Origin: Algoriphagus lutimaris
GTDB taxonomy: Bacteria > Bacteroidota > Bacteroidia > Cytophagales > Cyclobacteriaceae
Assembly: GCF_017051705.1 (NCBI RefSeq)
Contig: NZ_JAFIDJ010000001.1
Coordinates: 1 to 64,000 of the forward strand
Direction: 5' to 3'
DNA length: 64,000 bases
Notes under the pieces: generated by a model
Told to the model about the DNA's origin: nothing
What the model saw: only the letters and a program-made list of their open reading frames with translations
Database searches by the model: none
Part shown: positions 22,375-32,461 of the stretch, in pieces
Numbering within the stretch: the stretch's first letter is position 1
How the letters are laid out: every line of letters begins with the position of its first letter
Program-made: the position numbers and the translations under genes

Positions 22375-22405
22375 TTTGATTGACTCAAAAGTAATTATAA
22401 TTTTA
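22375..22405 (+). promoter_or_regulatory. candidate porX promoter
   Basis: TTTG (22375-22378), 19 bases, then TAATTTTA (22398-22405), one mismatch from the Bacteroidota -7 element TAnnTTTG. The porX ATG lies 19 bases on, preceded by AAAGGAAA. The same 59 bases must also serve the divergent HD-hydrolase/lpx operon. Confidence 0.45.
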
Positions 22406-22423
22406 AAAGAAAAGGAAACTCTA

Positions 22424-23980
22424 ATGTCTCAAAAGTTTAATATTCTATGGGCGGACGATGAAATCGACCTTCTTAAACCACATATTCTTTTTCTGGAGCA
22501 AAAAGGATATCAGATTACTACGGTAAATTCTGGAGTGGATGCAATTGATGAAGTCGAAGCTCAAAATTTCGATGTCATTTTTTTAGATGAGATGATGCCT
22601 GGTATGACAGGCTTGGAAACCTTGCAGCAAATCAAAATTATCAAGCCTCAAATACCTGTGGTGATGATTACCAAGTCAGAGGAAGAGCATATTATGAATG
22701 ATGCTATTGGGGGTAAAATTGCTGATTACCTGATCAAACCTCTGAATCCCAATCAAATCTTGCTTTCTGTTAAAAAGCTGTTGCAAAACAAACAACTAAT
22801 TGATGAAAAAACTACCCTGAATTATCAGCAGGAGTTTATGAAAATCAGTATGGCTTTTGGAGATGCACAAGATCATAATGATTGGACTGATATTTATAAG
22901 AAGCTGATTTATTGGGAGATGCAAATCGATTCTACTGAAAATAAAAGTATGATTGAAGTGCTGGAAACCCAGAAAACAGAAGCAAATGCCTCTTTTGCTA
23001 GGTTTGTAAAAGACAACTACCTGGACTGGATGGAGGAGCAAAACAAAGACAAACCTCTTTTGTCCCACCAAGTCTTGAAACAAAAGGTGTTTCCTCAGAT
23101 CAAATCTGGGAAGCCGCTGTTTTTGATTGTAATTGATAATTTGAGATTAGATCAATGGGAGGACATTGAGCCCTTGTTGACTACTTATTTCAACATTGGG
23201 CAAAAGGATACTTATTATAGCATATTGCCAACCACAACTGCCTTTGCAAGAAATGCGCTCTTTAGTGGAATGATGCCCATGGATATGGCTCGATTCTATC
23301 CAAAACTTTGGGAAGATGAAGATTCAGACGAAGGGAAAAATAATTTCGAGGAAGACTGGTTGAAAATCAACTTGGATAAAAACAGGTTACCCATCAAGTC
23401 TTCCTATCATAAAATCCTACAGGCAAATCAAGGAAAAACTGTGGTGGAACAATTCCATCAGCTTCTTCAAAATGATTTGAATGTATTGGTCTATAATTTT
23501 GTGGATATGATGTCTCATGCCAGGACCGATATGAAAATGATTCGGGAACTTGCCCCTGATGAATCTGCTTATCGATCCATCACAAAAAGCTGGTTTGAGC
23601 ATTCCTCTCTTTTTGAGTTATTTAAAAAAATACAACTAGCTGGGGCAGAGGTAATCGTGACTACGGATCATGGGACTAAACGAGTGAATAGACCCTATCG
23701 AATCATTGGAGATAAGAATGTGACTACAAATCTGAGGTACAAACAAGGGAAAAACCTTAATTTTGAAGGAGGAAAGGTTTTTGAAATAAAAAGACCAGAA
23801 GATGCAAAGCTTCCTAGGTTGAATGTTTCTTCCAGTTATGTATTTGCAGTGGAGGATTATTTCTTTGCCTATCCCAATAATTACAATTATTATGTGAACT
23901 TCTATAAAGATACTTTTCAACATGGAGGTGTATCTTTGGAAGAAATGATCATTCCGATTGTTCATTTGTCACCAAAATAA
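22424..23980 (+). CDS. porX: PorX response regulator with PglZ domain (T9SS regulator)
   Basis: A 518-residue protein of the PorX type. A receiver domain (about 1-125, phosphoacceptor D55 in VIFLDEMMPG) is joined by a helical linker to a PglZ domain of the alkaline phosphatase superfamily (FLIVIDNLRLDQW near 230, VTTDHGTKRV near 412). PorX with the kinase PorY controls type IX secretion in Bacteroidota, and its PglZ domain is reported to have phosphodiesterase activity. A TTG at 22376 is in frame, but the ATG at 22424 has a good ribosome site and fits the family start. No T9SS structural gene is in the window. It is followed by tsaE 8 bases later. Confidence 0.94.
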   Translation: MSQKFNILWADDEIDLLKPHILFLEQKGYQITTVNSGVDAIDEVEAQNFDVIFLDEMMPGMTGLETLQQIKIIKPQIPVVMITKSEEEHIMNDAIGGKIADYLIKPLNPNQILLSVKKLLQNKQLIDEKTTLNYQQEFMKISMAFGDAQDHNDWTDIYKKLIYWEMQIDSTENKSMIEVLETQKTEANASFARFVKDNYLDWMEEQNKDKPLLSHQVLKQKVFPQIKSGKPLFLIVIDNLRLDQWEDIEPLLTTYFNIGQKDTYYSILPTTTAFARNALFSGMMPMDMARFYPKLWEDEDSDEGKNNFEEDWLKINLDKNRLPIKSSYHKILQANQGKTVVEQFHQLLQNDLNVLVYNFVDMMSHARTDMKMIRELAPDESAYRSITKSWFEHSSLFELFKKIQLAGAEVIVTTDHGTKRVNRPYRIIGDKNVTTNLRYKQGKNLNFEGGKVFEIKRPEDAKLPRLNVSSSYVFAVEDYFFAYPNNYNYYVNFYKDTFQHGGVSLEEMIIPIVHLSPK

Positions 23981-25622: not shown

Positions 25623-26096
25623 TTAGGAAAGTAGGTTTTGTCTTAGCAGAAACTCAAGTTGCTCATTGGCTTTCAATAAGGCCTCTGTTAACTTTTCATT
25701 CTCCCTTCTGAGTGTATACATCTCAAAAGCATTTTTGATCACAGTTCTTAAATAATCTTCCTCCCAAGGTTTTGTCAAGTAATGATATACTTGGCCTTTG
25801 TTGATTGCGTCAATTACTGCTTGTATATCAGTATATCCAGTTAATAAAAGACGTATTGGTTTAGGGTAAATAGGAATGATGCTTTCTAAAAATTCAACGC
25901 CAGTTTCTTCTGGCATCCGTTGATCTGTAATAATCAAATCAACTTCTTGTTCTATTAATATTTCTCTTGCTTCTTTTGCTGAGATAGCAAGAAATATTTT
26001 ATAATCTCTTCGGAATGTTGCTTTAAATGCCTGAAGATTATTTTCTTCATCATCTACATAAAGAATTTTTATTTTTTCTTCACTTCCAGTTTCCAT
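25623..26096 (-). CDS. stand-alone response regulator (receiver domain)
   Basis: A 157-residue protein: a receiver domain (acidic D15-D16, phosphoacceptor D58 in ITDQRMP, T/K positions in LLTGYTD and TKPW) and a short C-terminal helix, with no DNA-binding or enzyme domain. The frame runs further upstream to a TTG at 26138, but the ATG at 26096 is preferred. Its receiver is clearly paralogous to that of the 31376-32461 protein (shared DDExNNL, DQRMP, AVIDAINKG, KPW). It is divergent from the E1/nitroreductase operon and likely belongs to the same signalling pathway. Confidence 0.88.
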   Translation of the reverse strand: METGSEEKIKILYVDDEENNLQAFKATFRRDYKIFLAISAKEAREILIEQEVDLIITDQRMPEETGVEFLESIIPIYPKPIRLLLTGYTDIQAVIDAINKGQVYHYLTKPWEEDYLRTVIKNAFEMYTLRRENEKLTEALLKANEQLEFLLRQNLLS

Positions 26097-26247
26097 AAGG
26101 CATCTATAACTGTCAACAGATTGAAATCTGTAGGACAAATAATCTCTTTTTTAGTTAAAAAACAAACTAAGGTCGGTTTGAAATCTATTTAGGGTGTTAG
26201 GTGATGAATTATTCTCAATAAATTAATTGAATATGTTTAAGAATATA

Positions 26248-26277
26248 TTTGACATAAATCTTAATAAATTATCTTTA
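26248..26277 (+). promoter_or_regulatory. promoter of the E1/nitroreductase-kinase operon
   Basis: TTTG (26248-26251), 18 bases, then TATCTTTA (26270-26277): a near-consensus Bacteroidota housekeeping promoter (TTTG / TAnnTTTG). The ATG of the first gene is 28 bases downstream. The surrounding 200-base divergent region is very AT-rich. Confidence 0.55.
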
Positions 26278-26305
26278 CTGAGCTATTCACCCCCAGATTA
26301 CACAA

Positions 26306-28573
26306 ATGTCCATTAAAAATTTCGCGGATCAAAATGTAAATTATTCTGCTGTAATTCTAAATCCGAACCTTGAGTCTGACTGGTTAAAAATCAAAGAATT
26401 GCAAAAGAGTGAATTTGTTTTTGTTTCCGATCAAATTGAAAGTCAAGTAGGAGATTTAATCAAATCAGAAAATCCTGAAAGGACTATACCTAGTCAAGAA
26501 TTAAAAGGCTTAGTACTAAATTTTTTTAAAGAAATAGAGAAAGAAAAGTATGGCAATTGGGTGTTCTTTCCCTGGAAAAACACCTTGGTTCATGTGTTAG
26601 CAGAGGAGGAGTTTATTAAAATCAGAACACTTCGAAATAATTTTAAAATAACTCCTTCGGAACAAGATTTATTAAGTAAAAAGAAGGTCGGTATTGTAGG
26701 TTTATCTGTAGGTCAAAGCATCGCGTTGGCTATGACTTTGGAGAGAGGATATGGGGAGATCAGATTAGCAGATTTTGATACATTGGAACTTAGTAATCTA
26801 AATAGGCTGAAAGCAGGTGTAACTAGCTTAGGGTTAGAGAAAGTCGTGCTAGCGGCCAGGGAGATAGCAGAAATTGATCCGTATCTCAAGGTGAAGGTTT
26901 ATAGAGAAGGGATCACACCAGATAATATCGAAGATTTTCTATTAGAGGGGGGGAAGTTGGATTTGCTTATTGATGAGTGTGATAGCTTGGATATTAAAGT
27001 GTTAGTACGAGAAAAGGCAAGGCAACATCGAGTGGTCGTGATGATGGATACTTCGGATAGGGGTATGTTAGACATTGAACGCTTCGATATTGAGCCGGAA
27101 AGAGAATTGTTTCATGGTTTACTGAAAGGGGTTGATGTGAAGTCTCTAAAAAGCCTTTCTAATACAGAGAAAGTATCCATAGTTTTAAAGATTACAGGAT
27201 TAGAAACCCTGACACCCCGAATGAAAGTCTCTCTTTTGGAAATCGGGCAAACGATTAGCAGTTGGCCTCAGCTGGCCTCTGGAGTTTTTCTGGGAGGAGC
27301 ATCTGTTGCACATGCAGCTAGGAAATTTCTTTTAGGAGAAGATGTGAAATCCGGGAGATTTTATGTGGACTTTGATCAACTTTTTAATTTTAAGGAAGCG
27401 GAAGAAATTAAGGTAGATGCTCCAGTCTTTGAACAACTTTCAGATTTTCAATTTGAAGTTCCGACGGATGTTCTGCAGTCTGCTTATCGACTGTCAAGGG
27501 AAGAACTAGAACTATTAGTGGATCAAGCTAATTGGGCTCCTTCAGGAGGGAATATCCAGCCATGGGTTTGGGTTTTTGATAAAAAAGGAATCCTGCATCT
27601 TTTTCATGATAAAGTCAGAAGTCATTCCATGCTGGATTATAAGGGTACAGGTTCTTTAATTGCTTTTGGAGCAGCATTGGAAAATATTCGACTGCAAGCC
27701 GGTCAACTTGGGATTGAGGTAGAAATAATTTATCAAATCAGCGATTTTGAACAGGATTGTATTGCCAGTGTTCGGTTTGTTTCCAAACAACCTAACCCAC
27801 TACCTATCAAATTTGCTGAATTAGTGGACGGGATTAACCTTCGTTGCACCAATCGAAAAAATGCATCTAGGTATATGTTAAGCGAGGTGGAACTTCAGGC
27901 TTTAGTTGAGGTAGCAAAAGAAGATGATGTTTCGATGGAATGGACTTCTGAGCCAGAAGATTTAGTTCAATTGGCAAAAGTGGTGGGAGGAATGGACCGA
28001 TTGCGCTTTTTTCACGATCAGGGTTTGACGGATTTCATAAATGAAGTTCGGTGGACTGAAAAAGAAGCTATAGAAACGAAAGATGGGATTGATATAGCTA
28101 CGTTGGAGTTGAAAGGGGCAGAAAGAGCTGCAATGGGACTATTGAGAGATCCCAGAACCATTCAGTTTTTCAGAAAGTATCTGATGGGCTATGGCTTAAC
28201 CAAGATTTCCAAGGATACGATTACCACCGCTTCCGCAATATTCTTACTGAAAACTCCAGATTATACACCGGTTTCTATTTTGAAAGTAGGAACTGTCCTC
28301 CAAAGGGTTTGGATTAAAGCCAATATGTTGGGCTTAAGTGCTCAACCGGTTTCAGCGATGTTGTTTATTTTTCACATGTATTTGAATGAAAAGGAATCAG
28401 GTTTTACCGAAATTGAAGGCAAAGAGATTAGAGAATTAAAGAAAACTTTTAATTATATTTTTAATAAGCCAGTTGATCAGAAAGAAATTTTTATGTTTAG
28501 GGTAAATAAGGCAGGTGATCCTTCAGTAAAATCCTATCGCAGAGATCTGTCAGAAACCTTAATTACTATCTGA
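26306..28573 (+). CDS. Rv1355c-family fusion: ThiF/E1-like domain plus nitroreductase
   Basis: A 755-residue soluble protein. Residues 1-120 form an N-terminal region I cannot assign. Residues about 122-360 are a ThiF/E1-like adenylylating fold, with the nucleotide-binding loop GLSVGQS at 132-138, the DFDTLELSNLNR segment and LLIDECDS. Residues about 395-710 are a nitroreductase-like FMN domain (LSREELELLVDQANWAPSGG, IQPW). The M. tuberculosis relative Rv1355c is listed as MoeY, but no molybdopterin genes or ubiquitin-like partner are near. The C-terminal domain suggests an FMN-dependent reduction or dehydrogenation of an activated carboxyl compound (inference). It is the first of four tightly linked genes; the next ATG is one base after its stop. 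Confidence 0.88.
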   Translation: MSIKNFADQNVNYSAVILNPNLESDWLKIKELQKSEFVFVSDQIESQVGDLIKSENPERTIPSQELKGLVLNFFKEIEKEKYGNWVFFPWKNTLVHVLAEEEFIKIRTLRNNFKITPSEQDLLSKKKVGIVGLSVGQSIALAMTLERGYGEIRLADFDTLELSNLNRLKAGVTSLGLEKVVLAAREIAEIDPYLKVKVYREGITPDNIEDFLLEGGKLDLLIDECDSLDIKVLVREKARQHRVVVMMDTSDRGMLDIERFDIEPERELFHGLLKGVDVKSLKSLSNTEKVSIVLKITGLETLTPRMKVSLLEIGQTISSWPQLASGVFLGGASVAHAARKFLLGEDVKSGRFYVDFDQLFNFKEAEEIKVDAPVFEQLSDFQFEVPTDVLQSAYRLSREELELLVDQANWAPSGGNIQPWVWVFDKKGILHLFHDKVRSHSMLDYKGTGSLIAFGAALENIRLQAGQLGIEVEIIYQISDFEQDCIASVRFVSKQPNPLPIKFAELVDGINLRCTNRKNASRYMLSEVELQALVEVAKEDDVSMEWTSEPEDLVQLAKVVGGMDRLRFFHDQGLTDFINEVRWTEKEAIETKDGIDIATLELKGAERAAMGLLRDPRTIQFFRKYLMGYGLTKISKDTITTASAIFLLKTPDYTPVSILKVGTVLQRVWIKANMLGLSAQPVSAMLFIFHMYLNEKESGFTEIEGKEIRELKKTFNYIFNKPVDQKEIFMFRVNKAGDPSVKSYRRDLSETLITI

Positions 28574-28574
28574 A

Positions 28575-29285
28575 ATGTTCAATTTTAAGGCATTTAGAGC
28601 GATTGATGAACCAGAACGATGTGAGAAATTCGTTCAAGGGCATTCTGACGTATTGAAGCAATATGGAGTTACAAAAGTAACCTCCTCAAATAATGATTGG
28701 GTTAATAACCCGTTTGTGTATGTGGTGACAGTGGAGACGGCAGATACCAAAGAAGTAGTGAGTGGATTAAGAATACATATTGCCCATCCAGACTATCCAT
28801 TACCGATGGAGCAAGCAGTATCTCAGGTAGATCATAAAATTTTTGATTTGGTAAAAAATTATTCAGTCGAAGGCACAGGAGAAGTTTCTGGTTTATGGAA
28901 TTCAAAGTCCATTTCTGGATATGGAGTGGGGGCTGTCTTATTAATTCGAGCTGGTATTGCAATCGCATCACAACTAAAATTAGGCTCTTTGTTAGCCTTA
29001 GTAGCTGAATACACTTTAAAACCTTCTTTGCAAAAGGGATTTGAAATTGAAACTGGAATAGGTAATTCAGGAACTTTCTTTTACCCAAAATTGGATTTGG
29101 TTGCTACTTCGATAGTGATGAAAGATCCTGAAAATTTACCTTTGGCAGATTCTTCAGAGAGAGAAAGAATTAAGGAGTTGAGGGAAAAGCTTCAGTTTAA
29201 TAAGATTGAAGAAGGGCCCAAGGGTAAGTTTGAGGTTAATTATGACCTATTATTGACTAATATTAATTGGAGAAATGACATTTAG
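28575..29285 (+). CDS. GNAT/autoinducer-synthase-like protein
   Basis: A 236-residue protein with no signal peptide or clear membrane span. The pattern resembles N-acyltransferases of the GNAT or LuxI/FeeM-like fold: a strand SGLRIHIAHP, a strand GEVSGLWNSKSISGYGVG followed by a helix, a strand/helix region LALVAEYTLKPSLQKGFEIE, and a YPKLDLVATSIVM strand. No catalytic residue can be assigned with certainty. It starts one base behind the E1/nitroreductase gene and overlaps the sensor kinase start by 11 bases, so expression is coupled to both. The family call is inference from pattern and needs a structure search. Confidence 0.6.
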   Translation: MFNFKAFRAIDEPERCEKFVQGHSDVLKQYGVTKVTSSNNDWVNNPFVYVVTVETADTKEVVSGLRIHIAHPDYPLPMEQAVSQVDHKIFDLVKNYSVEGTGEVSGLWNSKSISGYGVGAVLLIRAGIAIASQLKLGSLLALVAEYTLKPSLQKGFEIETGIGNSGTFFYPKLDLVATSIVMKDPENLPLADSSERERIKELREKLQFNKIEEGPKGKFEVNYDLLLTNINWRNDI

Positions 29286-31386
29286 GATTTTTATTTTGGT
29301 TCTCATGTTTTTCGCAGGAACCTTTCAGGTATCTGCACAAGAAACAGAAAAGGTTGAATGTTTTTCTTTTTTGCTCGCAGAAAATGACGTAGAGATTGGT
29401 GAAATAATCAAAAGTGGTGAGTTCAGTTCCAATGACTGTCAAAACTTTAATTTTGGAATCAATTCTAAAACCCTGTGGATTAAGTTGGATTTCCCCAACT
29501 TAAATAGATTTGAAAATCCAGTGTTTGCTCTTAATTCATCTTCTGCTGACCTTGTTAGGCTTTTTTCTGTAAAAAATGGAGAGGTACTAAAGATCCATGA
29601 TAACGGACGTCTTTTAGGGGTCGATGAACGGGATTTTCCGACACAGAAAATAGCATTTAAATTTGATCAGGATGAAATTGATGCAGATTATTTTATTGTA
29701 AGACTTGATAATGTAGACAAAAAGATATTCTACGGATTCCTTTCTTCAAGGGAGACATTACTGGATATAATCACATTTGAAGATTTGCTTTTTGGACTTT
29801 TAACAGGAGTTTTCTTAGGGCTATTCTTCTATAACTTGTTTCTCTATTTCTCTGTCAAGGATAAGATTTACTTTGTTTATGTTCTTCATACCTTATTGGT
29901 TTGGTTTGCACAAGCTTCAATATTGGGATATACACAAAGTTTACTTTGGCCTGAATGGGATTGGATGAATCAAAGGTCCATTGTTATTTTCTCTTCTTTG
30001 GTAAGTATTGTGGGGATTTGGTTTTTGAGATTATTTCTAATGTCCAAAAGCATTGTTCCTAAAATAGATAAAGGGTTTCTAATTGTATTTATTGTATATG
30101 GATTTATTCTGGTTAATGCCTTATTTTTTTCCACTACCATAAGTTATCAGGTCATCTTAGTCACCCAATCCATTGTAGTCATTTTTGTGCTATTAGTGGC
30201 AGTTATGATCTTACGGAAGGGATATAGACCTGCCAGATATTATTTGCTGGCCTGGTCTATCTTCATGATCGGTATTTTCCTTTTTGTTTTCAGTGAAATG
30301 GGAATTATTCCTTCCAATAACTTGACGGCTTATATTATGCCTCTGGGGTCTGCATTGGAAGTAATCTTGCTTTCCTTTGCATTGGCTGATCGGATAAATA
30401 TTCTTAAGAAAGAAAAAGAGAGAGAGCAGGCGGAGCGTCTGGAGATCTTGAAAGAAAATGAAACTCTAGTGCGCGAGCAGAACACCCTTTTAGAGAAAAA
30501 AGTGAAATTAAGAACCGATGAACTAGAGCATGCACTTCGAAATTTACAGAATACCCAAAGTCAGTTGGTGAGTCAGGAGAAGATGGCTTCACTGGGTCAG
30601 TTGACAGCTGGTATTGCACATGAAATCAATAATCCGATCAACTTTGTGAGTTCAAATATCACTCCGCTGAAACGGGATATTAAGGATATCATGGATGTAA
30701 TAGAGTTTTATAGAAATACAGGAAATACTGAGTTTTCCGAGAGTTCTAAAAAGAAAGCCAAGGACTTGGAAGAAGAGTTGGAGTTGGATTATGTGCTTGA
30801 CGAAGTAGATCAATTGCTCAAAGGGATGGAGGATGGAGCAAGAAGAACTGTTGAGATCGTAAAAGGATTGCGGATTTTCTCTAGAGTAGATGAACAGGAC
30901 GTTAAAAAAGTAGATATTCACGATGGCATCAATAGCACCATCATTCTTTTAAATAGTCAAATTCCCGGGAAAATCAGAATAGTTAGGGAATTTGGAGAAT
31001 TGCCAATGGTAGAATGTCTGGCGGGAAAGATTAATCAGGTATTTATGAATATCATCAATAATGCTATCCATGCATTATCTGACAATATCGATGAAATTAA
31101 GGATCCGCATATTACCATCCGGACAGTGGCCAATGCTGAAGAAACTGTCACTGTAGAGATAGAAGATAATGGGCCGGGTATGCCAGATAATGTGAAAGAG
31201 CGTATATTTGAACCATTCTTTACTACAAAAGCAGTCGGCAAAGGTACTGGCTTGGGGCTGTCAATTGTTTATTCTATTATTGAGAACCACAAAGGAACCT
31301 TGGAAGTAAAATCAAAACAAGGAGAGGGAACCACTTTTATTATCACCCTTCCAGTATACCAAAGTACCCAGAAATATGAGCAATAA
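29275..31386 (+). CDS. 7TMR-DISM sensor histidine kinase
   Basis: A 703-residue membrane kinase. A signal peptide (ending near VSAQE) precedes a periplasmic 7TMR-DISM extracellular domain (about 25-165), seven membrane helices (about 175-372), a coiled coil (about 375-435), a HisKA domain with H449 in GIAHEINNP, and an ATPase domain with N-box [15 protein letters not shown] and GTGLGLSI. 7TMR-DISM receptors are thought to bind carbohydrate-like or other small ligands. The start overlaps the preceding gene and its stop overlaps the next, so it is the fixed partner of both. Likely phosphoacceptor partners are the two DQRMP receivers at 31376 and 25623. Confidence 0.93.
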
Positions 31387-32461
31387 AATCCATGTGCTCT
31401 ACATTGATGACGAGGACAACAACTTGAAATCATTTAGAGCAACGCTTAGAAAAGACTTTAAAATTTTTACAGCCATAGATGCTGAAGAGGGACTTAGAAT
31501 CGCTCAGGAAGAGGAGATTCATGTGGTCATTGCTGATCAAAGAATGCCTGGAATGACGGGCACCGAATTCTTTGAAAAAATGGTGAAAATCAATCCGGAC
31601 CCTATCAGAATCTTGTTGACAGGCTATTCGGATATTGCTAGTGTCATTGATGCGATCAATAAAGGGGAGGTATATCGTTTTATTGACAAGCCTTGGAATA
31701 TTGAGCAAATCAAAAACTCGATTAAAAATGCCGCTGATATTTATTTCATGCGGATGGAATTAAAAGAAAAGAATGTGAAGCTCAAAAAGCTTCATTCGGA
31801 AATGAACCAGTTTGTTTATAGTCTTTCGCACGAATTGCGTGGTCCATTAATGAGTATTTCCGGGATTTCAAAGTTGGCCAAACTGGAAGTTCAGGATCCT
31901 CAGACTCTGGAATATTTTGAAATGATTGATTCGGCAACAGTCAAACTTGATGACTATATCTACAAGATGCTGGATTTTTACAGGTCCACTAAAATAGATC
32001 ATAAAGTTACTGCTGTCGATTTTAAAGAAATTGTTCGTCAACAAATGGAAGCTTATCATGCTAAATTTGATTTGACTAATTTTCATATCGATATACAAAT
32101 CAATCAAGATCATGATTTCTTTTCCGATGATGCCAAAATCCGTGTGATTTTGAATAATCTGTTCAGTAATTCGGTGCAATTTCAAAAACAAGAGCCTGGA
32201 CCTAAGAACATTAGCTTGACCATCGATGTGATGGAAGATTCTGCAATGATAGCTATTGAGGACAATGGAATAGGGATTGATGCCAAACATCATCCAGAAG
32301 TTTTTAATCTTTTTACCCGAGCCACGCAAAAAAATGTGGGTGTAGGATTAGGGCTATATATGGTGAAGGAGGCAGTAGAACAAATGGGGGGAAAAATCAA
32401 CTTGGAATCAGCTTTGGATGAAGGAACACAGATAACTGTGATTCTTCCAAGCATGAAATAA
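31376..32461 (+). CDS. response regulator-histidine kinase (receiver plus HisKA/HATPase)
   Basis: A 361-residue soluble protein. The receiver domain (1-125, D54 in VIADQRMPG) comes first, followed by a short linker, a HisKA domain with H152 in SLSHELRGP and an ATPase domain with DNGIGID and GVGLGLYMVKEA. The architecture receives phosphate from the 7TM kinase and passes a signal through its own kinase domain. No output DNA-binding domain is present, so the final effector is elsewhere, perhaps the stand-alone receiver at 25623. Overlaps the 7TM kinase by 11 bases. Confidence 0.92.
   Translation: MSNKIHVLYIDDEDNNLKSFRATLRKDFKIFTAIDAEEGLRIAQEEEIHVVIADQRMPGMTGTEFFEKMVKINPDPIRILLTGYSDIASVIDAINKGEVYRFIDKPWNIEQIKNSIKNAADIYFMRMELKEKNVKLKKLHSEMNQFVYSLSHELRGPLMSISGISKLAKLEVQDPQTLEYFEMIDSATVKLDDYIYKMLDFYRSTKIDHKVTAVDFKEIVRQQMEAYHAKFDLTNFHIDIQINQDHDFFSDDAKIRVILNNLFSNSVQFQKQEPGPKNISLTIDVMEDSAMIAIEDNGIGIDAKHHPEVFNLFTRATQKNVGVGLGLYMVKEAVEQMGGKINLESALDEGTQITVILPSMK

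Follow-up and report, generated by a model that had tools for sequence, protein, structure and literature searches.

A five-gene locus of Algoriphagus lutimaris links a predicted oxazolone-forming enzyme to a 7TMR-DISM sensor kinase: a candidate synthase-receptor module

The locus and its genes

The stretch considered here, referred to as the window, comprises the first 64,000 nucleotides of contig NZ_JAFIDJ010000001.1 of Algoriphagus lutimaris (assembly GCF_017051705.1) and contains at positions 25623-32461 five open reading frames (ORFs), one divergent on the minus strand and four closely packed on the plus strand (Table 1). The plus-strand genes encode, in order, a TrzS-like cyclase-oxidase (gene 1), a TrzA-like acyltransferase candidate (gene 2), a sensor histidine kinase with a seven-transmembrane (7TM) region (HK7TM) and a receiver-kinase protein (RRHK); the divergent gene encodes a stand-alone receiver (RR). 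A one-base gap (28574) and then two 11-base overlaps join the plus-strand genes, an arrangement already described in a first-pass annotation of the sequence, whose coordinates and junctions we confirm. The gene order is identical in Algoriphagus aestuarii (L033; L and G numbers are our handles for loci and genomes), with 78-94% identity across the five genes.

By domain content gene 1 combines a ThiF (76.5 bits) with a Nitroreductase domain (39.4 bits), and over its full length (residues 7-752) it matches the NCBIfam model 'Rv1355c family protein' (NF005901, 732 bits against a cut-off of 476), so that on its sequence it is a member of the Rv1355c/TrzS family. This family was characterised in 2025 as TrzS, in which a ThiF-type cyclase and a flavin oxidase form one protein that yields N-acyl-amino-acid oxazolones: in the part of that paper available to us, N-acyl tryptophan supplied by the neighbouring TrzA is cyclised in an ATP-dependent step and then desaturated to N-acyl tryptazolone, and D217, R540 and Q651 are the residues tested (PMC12856293). 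Matched by spacing to M. smegmatis TrzS, with a Mycolicibacterium plasmid homologue standing in for the latter's sequence, D217 corresponds to D226 of gene 1, R540 to R565 or R567, and Q651 to Q680; D226, in the cyclase half, is invariant in all 15 aligned sequences. By analogy with these homologues we regard gene 1 as a predicted oxazolone-forming enzyme. A role in ubiquitin-like conjugation was dropped, because the characterised Rv1355c family acts on small molecules. The earlier statement that no characterised system has this gene set needs dividing: the enzyme pair belongs to the TrzAS/OxzAB oxazolone pathway as described in the available parts of PMC12856293 and PMC10404671, and the statement holds for its combination with the kinases. 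In a search of genome contigs gene 1 matched, apart from Algoriphagus aestuarii, a Clostridium contig at 27% over 184 residues.

Gene 2 occupies the place where TrzA would be, beside the TrzS-like gene, and belongs to a conserved family (17 invariant columns among 36 aligned members). The label 'GNAT-like' given to it previously could not be upheld as it stood: nothing in Pfam scores above its cut-off, and a faint PF00583 (GNAT) signal appears in four of the 36 relatives (best E 0.0093), the window protein not being among those shown. A profile alignment (hhalign) of the family with the Rhodococcus gene beside TrzS, itself uncharacterised, gives a weak colinear match over 163 columns (probability 9%, E 0.0035), its score of 27.5 exceeding the highest among 200 shuffles, 26.0. 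A profile search of the PDB returned 1vhs as sole match (E 0.96), and a single-sequence AlphaFold2 model has a predicted local distance difference test (pLDDT) score of 34, too low for use. The protein was not found in the viral contigs or plasmids searched. Gene 2 is thus best described as a candidate N-acyltransferase, with a weak link to the characterised TrzA.

The sensor kinase carries the domains 7TMR-DISMED2, 7TMR-DISM_7TM (172.7 bits) and HATPase_c, with HisKA below its cut-off. This architecture of DISMED2, 7TM and HATPase recurs in all 12 relatives scanned, HisKA again falling mostly under its cut-off. RRHK consists of Response_reg, HisKA and HATPase_c, and the divergent RR of Response_reg alone; its start is probably at 26096 (157 amino acids), the commonest length among relatives.

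Table 1. Features of the module in the window
Feature	Position	Strand	Basis and remarks
Stand-alone receiver (RR)	25623..26138	-	PF00072 67.3 bits; no output domain found; layout like PhcQ
Divergent intergenic region, 167 bp	26139..26305	.	one TATATTTG, a candidate -7-like element by the Bacteroidota consensus
TrzS-like cyclase-oxidase, Rv1355c family, 755 aa	26306..28573	+	NF005901 732 bits, cut-off 476
ThiF-type ATP-dependent cyclase half	26306..27400	+	PF00899; D226
Flavin-dependent oxidase half (nitroreductase superfamily)	27491..28570	+	PF00881; Acg/2ymv E 0.00022; R565 or R567, Q680
TrzA-like N-acyltransferase candidate, 236 aa	28575..29285	+	position, conserved family, weak GNAT signal, weak colinear Rhodococcus match
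7TMR-DISM sensor histidine kinase (HK7TM), 703 aa	29275..31386	+	domain scan; putative phospho-acceptor H449, from the H-box
Hypervariable periplasmic domain, 7TMR-DISMED2	29275..29769	+	mean in-genus distance 0.73
7TM region of HK7TM	29779..30393	+	co-varies with TrzA, r 0.91
Exchange cassette, TrzA + HK7TM sensor half	28575..30400	+	boundaries inferred from relatives
Receiver + HisKA + HATPase protein (RRHK), 361 aa	31376..32461	+	H152; no DNA-binding domain found; layout like PhcR

Conservation of the cluster

The five genes cluster beyond chance. Among 60 gene-1 sequences, comprising the window, L033 and 58 of the 59 other gene-1 genomes (G032, in which the gene is split over two contigs, was left out, as were two loci with only a distant nitroreductase match), the TrzA-like gene is present in the cluster in 58, HK7TM in 59, RRHK in 56 and RR in 59. 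The misses concern L042 and L074, which lie at contig ends, L069, which is without RRHK, and L064, a 6.7-kb contig without TrzA, RRHK and RR. In L069 the place of RRHK is taken by an opposite-strand ORF of 404 amino acids. Within the genus, gene 1 is found in 55 of 73 genomes, that of the window included: 47 with a fused form over the cut-off, seven with the cyclase only and one split over two contigs. The 18 genomes without it are all of 2.9 Mb or smaller and 67-91% complete, and every genome of at least 3.3 Mb possesses it.

Outside the genus, at a threshold of E 1e-60 or better in two genome samples, 11 genomes of seven family codes contain gene 1, with HK7TM in the cluster in all 11 and TrzA in 10. 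The neighbourhood survey that the first-pass annotation had proposed as a check places the kinase gene inside the enzyme cluster in eight family codes, the window's own included, and the inference made there, that the enzymes make a compound which the kinase senses, withstood this attempt at refutation. In one of these copies (L109, genome G147) the module lies between a type IV secretion system coupling protein and a relaxase and may be carried on a conjugative element. Four loci outside the genus have an extra small receiver after RRHK (L105:13163-13588, L106:12726-13136, L110:4889-5290 and L071:4852-5292, the L071 copy falling below the Pfam cut-off).

A profile of the TrzA family matches 13 of 395 Bacteroidota genomes, and a profile of the HK7TM subfamily matches those very 13 at 939-1034 bits, the next-best kinase scoring 472. 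Since eight of the 13 TrzA genomes and ten of the 13 HK7TM genomes had contributed sequences to their own profile, the informative part of this overlap is the absence of solo copies of either gene in the remaining 382 genomes (for HK7TM the two best candidates per genome were scored). In all 13 genomes candidate synthase and candidate receptor are encoded together in one cluster, which also contains RRHK in all 13 and a window-type RR in 10 (L107 and L110 are without RR, and L162 is a 4.7-kb contig).

Co-variation and exchange of the acyltransferase and the sensor half

The two parts of the kinase differ in their divergence, the mean in-genus distance being 0.73 for the ectodomain and 0.17 for the kinase half. 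We compared protein distances among 45 in-genus loci with a fused gene 1, drawn from those 51 of 62 annotated sequences which have all the genes required, L049 and five cyclase-only loci being left out. TrzA distances correlate with those of the ectodomain (r 0.90) and the 7TM region (0.91), as against 0.21 for the kinase half, 0.24 for RRHK, 0.33-0.37 for the TrzS halves (0.33 for the C-terminal one) and 0.08-0.25 for the other flanking genes. When AlaDH, the PglZ-receiver protein, the kinase half, RRHK and the TrzS C-terminal half are controlled for, the partial correlation between TrzA and the sensor remains 0.89-0.90 across all loci and 0.67-0.88 inside either large class (n=19 and 26), and none of 299 permutations is as high.

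The same boundary is seen in pairs of close relatives, between which TrzA and the sensor half of the kinase have been exchanged as a single unit. Between L035 and L089 protein identity is 98-100% in AlaDH, RR, TrzS (98-99%), the kinase half (99%), RRHK (98%) and PPase, whereas within the cassette it is 46% for TrzA, 17% for the ectodomain and 39% for the 7TM region. At the DNA level all three pairs compared lose identity where TrzA begins and regain it where the 7TM region ends, the two besides L035/L089 less sharply, and L046/L051 represents a further swap of TrzA and sensor. Three TrzA classes require 11 changes on a tree of the flanking genes and kinase half. With six finer classes, at cut-offs of the analyst's choice in one setting each (0.46, 0.50, 0.72 and 0.32), all 51 loci fit a scheme in which any one TrzA class goes with one ectodomain class only. 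The relation is many-to-one, since TrzA classes 1 and 2 have an ectodomain class in common, as do classes 5 and 6. Between the two largest classes, TrzA and ectodomain switch together in seven of seven independent tree pairs (p 0.0156), and among the results listed the other class pairs, with one or two independent pairs each, switch in the same way, except TrzA classes 1 versus 2.

As a control we used the genome's one other 7TMR-DISM protein, which has close full-length copies in four of the 73 genus genomes (own included), giving three genome pairs, one near-identical and two informative. In the informative pairs this paralogue shows no break at the 7TM region (82-84% versus 83-86% in the catalytic part); for HK7TM in the same pairs the 7TM region and kinase half stand at 35% versus 86% and at 74% versus 78%. 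Synthase-receptor specificity groups are thus seen at the level of sequence, and the pattern of co-variation and exchange fits cognate signal-receptor specificity.

Variation of the tailoring step

The fused cyclase-oxidase is known from the genus, from G073 and from family f5, and the cyclase-only form from seven genus loci (L063, L065-L070) and from eight of the 11 gene-1 genomes outside the genus; the nitroreductase half is hence dispensable. The stretch read at six cyclase-only loci of Bacteroidota outside the genus contains no further match to the TrzS profile, and hence no separate oxidase half. Five loci without the flavin oxidase half (L063, L065, L066, L068 and L070) all have their own TrzA and sensor class in the class table, as if chemistry and receptor had changed together. 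In L160 and L161, two distant loci, the cyclase slot is occupied by a 213-amino-acid ICMT-type carboxyl methyltransferase (70.6 and 66.2 bits, 41% mutual identity), and gene 1 was not found in either genome at 1e-60. Both routes would leave an N-acyl amino acid without its free carboxylate, as expected if the TrzA product is such a compound and a neutral diffusible molecule is needed. A Streptomyces plasmid (L111) encodes a cyclase-only homologue and a clear GNAT acetyltransferase of a different family; the 13 kb shown include no annotated 7TM kinase.

A candidate self-sensing module and its alternatives

The reading that we favour, with a probability of about 0.74, is that the locus encodes an autoinducer synthase-receptor module of the quorum-sensing type, laid out like PhcBSRQ of Ralstonia, its autoinducers being carboxylate-capped N-acyl amino acids. 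The TrzA-like protein would couple an acyl group to an amino acid, and the TrzS-like protein would activate the carboxylate with ATP, close the 2-alkyl-oxazolone ring and desaturate it. In cyclase-only relatives the chemistry would end at the ring, and where a membrane carboxyl methyltransferase replaces the cyclase the shared logic would still be an N-acyl amino acid whose carboxylate is capped. The periplasmic/7TM half of HK7TM would sense the capped compound or its N-acyl amino acid precursor, and HK7TM would phosphorylate the RRHK receiver and the stand-alone receiver, both of which may act on a regulator encoded elsewhere. A swap of TrzA and sensor would then alter the 'dialect' of the signal, leaving the relay unchanged. 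The earlier proposal that the enzymes make a compound sensed by the 7TM kinase thus gains from neighbourhood conservation, co-variation and cassette exchange, and we keep the sensing itself conditional. The wider view, which we hold with somewhat less assurance yet consider probable, is of an unrecognised quorum-sensing family of Bacteroidota, with N-acyl amino acid signals capped as oxazolone or methyl ester, a 7TMR-DISM kinase as receptor, a Phc-like relay and a change of dialect by a single cassette swap (acyltransferase plus sensor half).

Several observations count against this proposal. No exporter or DNA-binding regulator is seen among the module genes; the acyltransferase identity of the TrzA-like protein leans on weak homology; and L064 has cyclase and kinase with no TrzA in its fragmented genome. 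Tryptazolones are described as occurring more inside cells than outside, with acyl-tryptophan intermediates accumulating mainly in the exterior (PMC12856293, available part), and the true ligand could therefore be the precursor. TrzS, too, co-varies modestly with TrzA under the same control (partial correlation 0.17-0.53, none of 299 permutations as high), as would be expected if TrzS must accept the TrzA product, and inside class 2 the raw TrzA correlation reaches 0.59 for the kinase half and 0.57 for RRHK. Across 13 distant lineages, where distances are near saturation, the correlation between TrzA and ectodomain is 0.23 and no better than that of other pairs. L077 and L083 have a TrzA distance of 0.00 and ectodomains that differ by 18%; the less divergent of the two informative HK7TM comparisons above, the G042 pair, shows no break; and the ectodomain of the unrelated 7TM paralogue is also fast-drifting (53-59% in the two informative pairs). 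Finally, TrzA and the sensor half adjoin, such that one recombination tract can carry both and some of the co-variation could come from linkage alone, although linkage does not explain the boundary inside the kinase gene at the sensor end, nor the fact that TrzS and the kinase half for the most part do not move along.

Linkage is also the basis of an alternative in which diversifying selection acts on the ectodomain alone, exerted for example by phage or toxins, and the adjacent TrzA is dragged along. The overlap of the two genes, the mean ectodomain distance of 0.73 and the L077/L083 case would all accord with such hitch-hiking, but in each of the three pairs compared the tract reaches from the start of TrzA to the end of the 7TM region and no further, neither the TrzS C-terminal half (0.33) nor the kinase half (0.21) goes along with it although they adjoin just as closely, and the co-occurrence of the TrzA and HK7TM families is left unexplained; we consider this alternative very improbable. 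Somewhat less improbable, though still unlikely, is a biosynthetic locus with its own regulator, its oxazolone or N-acyl amino acid product being a membrane lipid, protectant or antibiotic whose synthesis the kinase switches on when it senses envelope or oxidative stress. Regulators often adjoin the genes under their control. The oxazolone papers, in their available parts, link such loci to oxidative stress and antibiotic exposure, and N-acyl tyrosine derivatives are antimicrobial (PMC12856293). A stress sensor has, however, no evident reason to co-vary with an acyltransferase and not with its own kinase half, or to be exchanged together with it.

The remaining alternative is compatible with self-sensing and concerns the chemistry: the ThiF half might make a lactone or other activated product of an acylated amino acid, even an acyl-homoserine lactone, and the signal would not be an oxazolone. 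Cyclase-only loci are common, substrate specificity is unreadable from sequence and TrzA is 30-47% identical between lineages, all of which lend this some weight; that the fused form keeps the cyclisation and desaturation residues by position, and that the characterised homologues yield oxazolones (available parts of PMC12856293 and PMC10404671), make it a minority possibility in our estimate.

Relation to known systems

The locus resembles TrzAS of Mycobacterium and Rhodococcus and OxzAB of Pseudoalteromonas rubra in having an Rv1355c-family fusion beside an acyltransferase-type gene, with catalytic residues that match by spacing, and differs in the attached 7TM kinase, receiver-kinase and receiver, no sensor kinase being described for those systems in the parts of the papers available. 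TyzACB of M. tuberculosis, which makes tyrazolone, as OxzAB does (PMC12856293), is comparable in possessing a separate ThiF cyclase, oxidase and acyltransferase; by contrast, a sensor is attached here, and no separate oxidase half was found in the stretch read at the six cyclase-only Bacteroidota loci outside the genus. On Rhodococcus plasmids L112, L163 and L164 a TrzS homologue, an opposite-strand TrzA candidate and a GGDEF protein stand in a row, which repeats the link of an oxazolone locus to cyclic di-GMP (c-di-GMP) reported for M. tuberculosis (PMC12856293).

The best precedent, by analogy, is phcBSRQ of Ralstonia, which comprises a synthase, a sensor kinase, a receiver-kinase without DNA-binding domain and a stand-alone receiver, a likeness drawn from layout and function. 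There, synthase and sensor sort by signal type and PhcR/PhcQ follow phylotype. However, PhcB is a methyltransferase producing a hydroxy-fatty-acid methyl ester, in place of which we find an N-acyltransferase candidate with a cyclase (or ICMT); a domain scan of the window module found no methyltransferase gene. Because the synthase differs, PhcB being compared by description and not by sequence, we do not class the module as a Phc system. A lipid-type autoinducer with a membrane histidine kinase as sensor is also found in LuxM/LuxN and CqsA/CqsS of Vibrio, the synthases and sensor families of which are unrelated to those of the window. In the specificity groups of agr and comQXPA the synthase and the sensor half of the kinase vary together and the kinase half is constant, but these are peptide signals of Gram-positive bacteria.

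The enzyme half being already characterised as TrzS, what is new is a dedicated, co-varying receptor candidate linked to the synthase. A signalling role for oxazolones was suggested earlier from chemical resemblance and c-di-GMP neighbours, and the same authors call their physiological role 'a major unresolved question' (PMC12856293, available part). Our literature search, outside which most subscription journals lay, found no report of an oxazolone receptor or sensor kinase. The locus thus offers a concrete candidate for such a receptor and makes the question of role testable in Algoriphagus, whose members are environmental bacteria. If the proposal is true, this would be the first receptor for bacterial oxazolones, and Bacteroidota would have a dedicated lipid-type autoinducer with natural dialects.

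Flanking genes

AlaDH and PPase flank the module in the two genomes of the window's family, and neither was found beside the module in other families. Two genes before the AlaDH end of the module, at window positions 22376-23980, lies a gene for a receiver + PglZ protein, the layout of which we take to be that of the type IX secretion regulator PorX.

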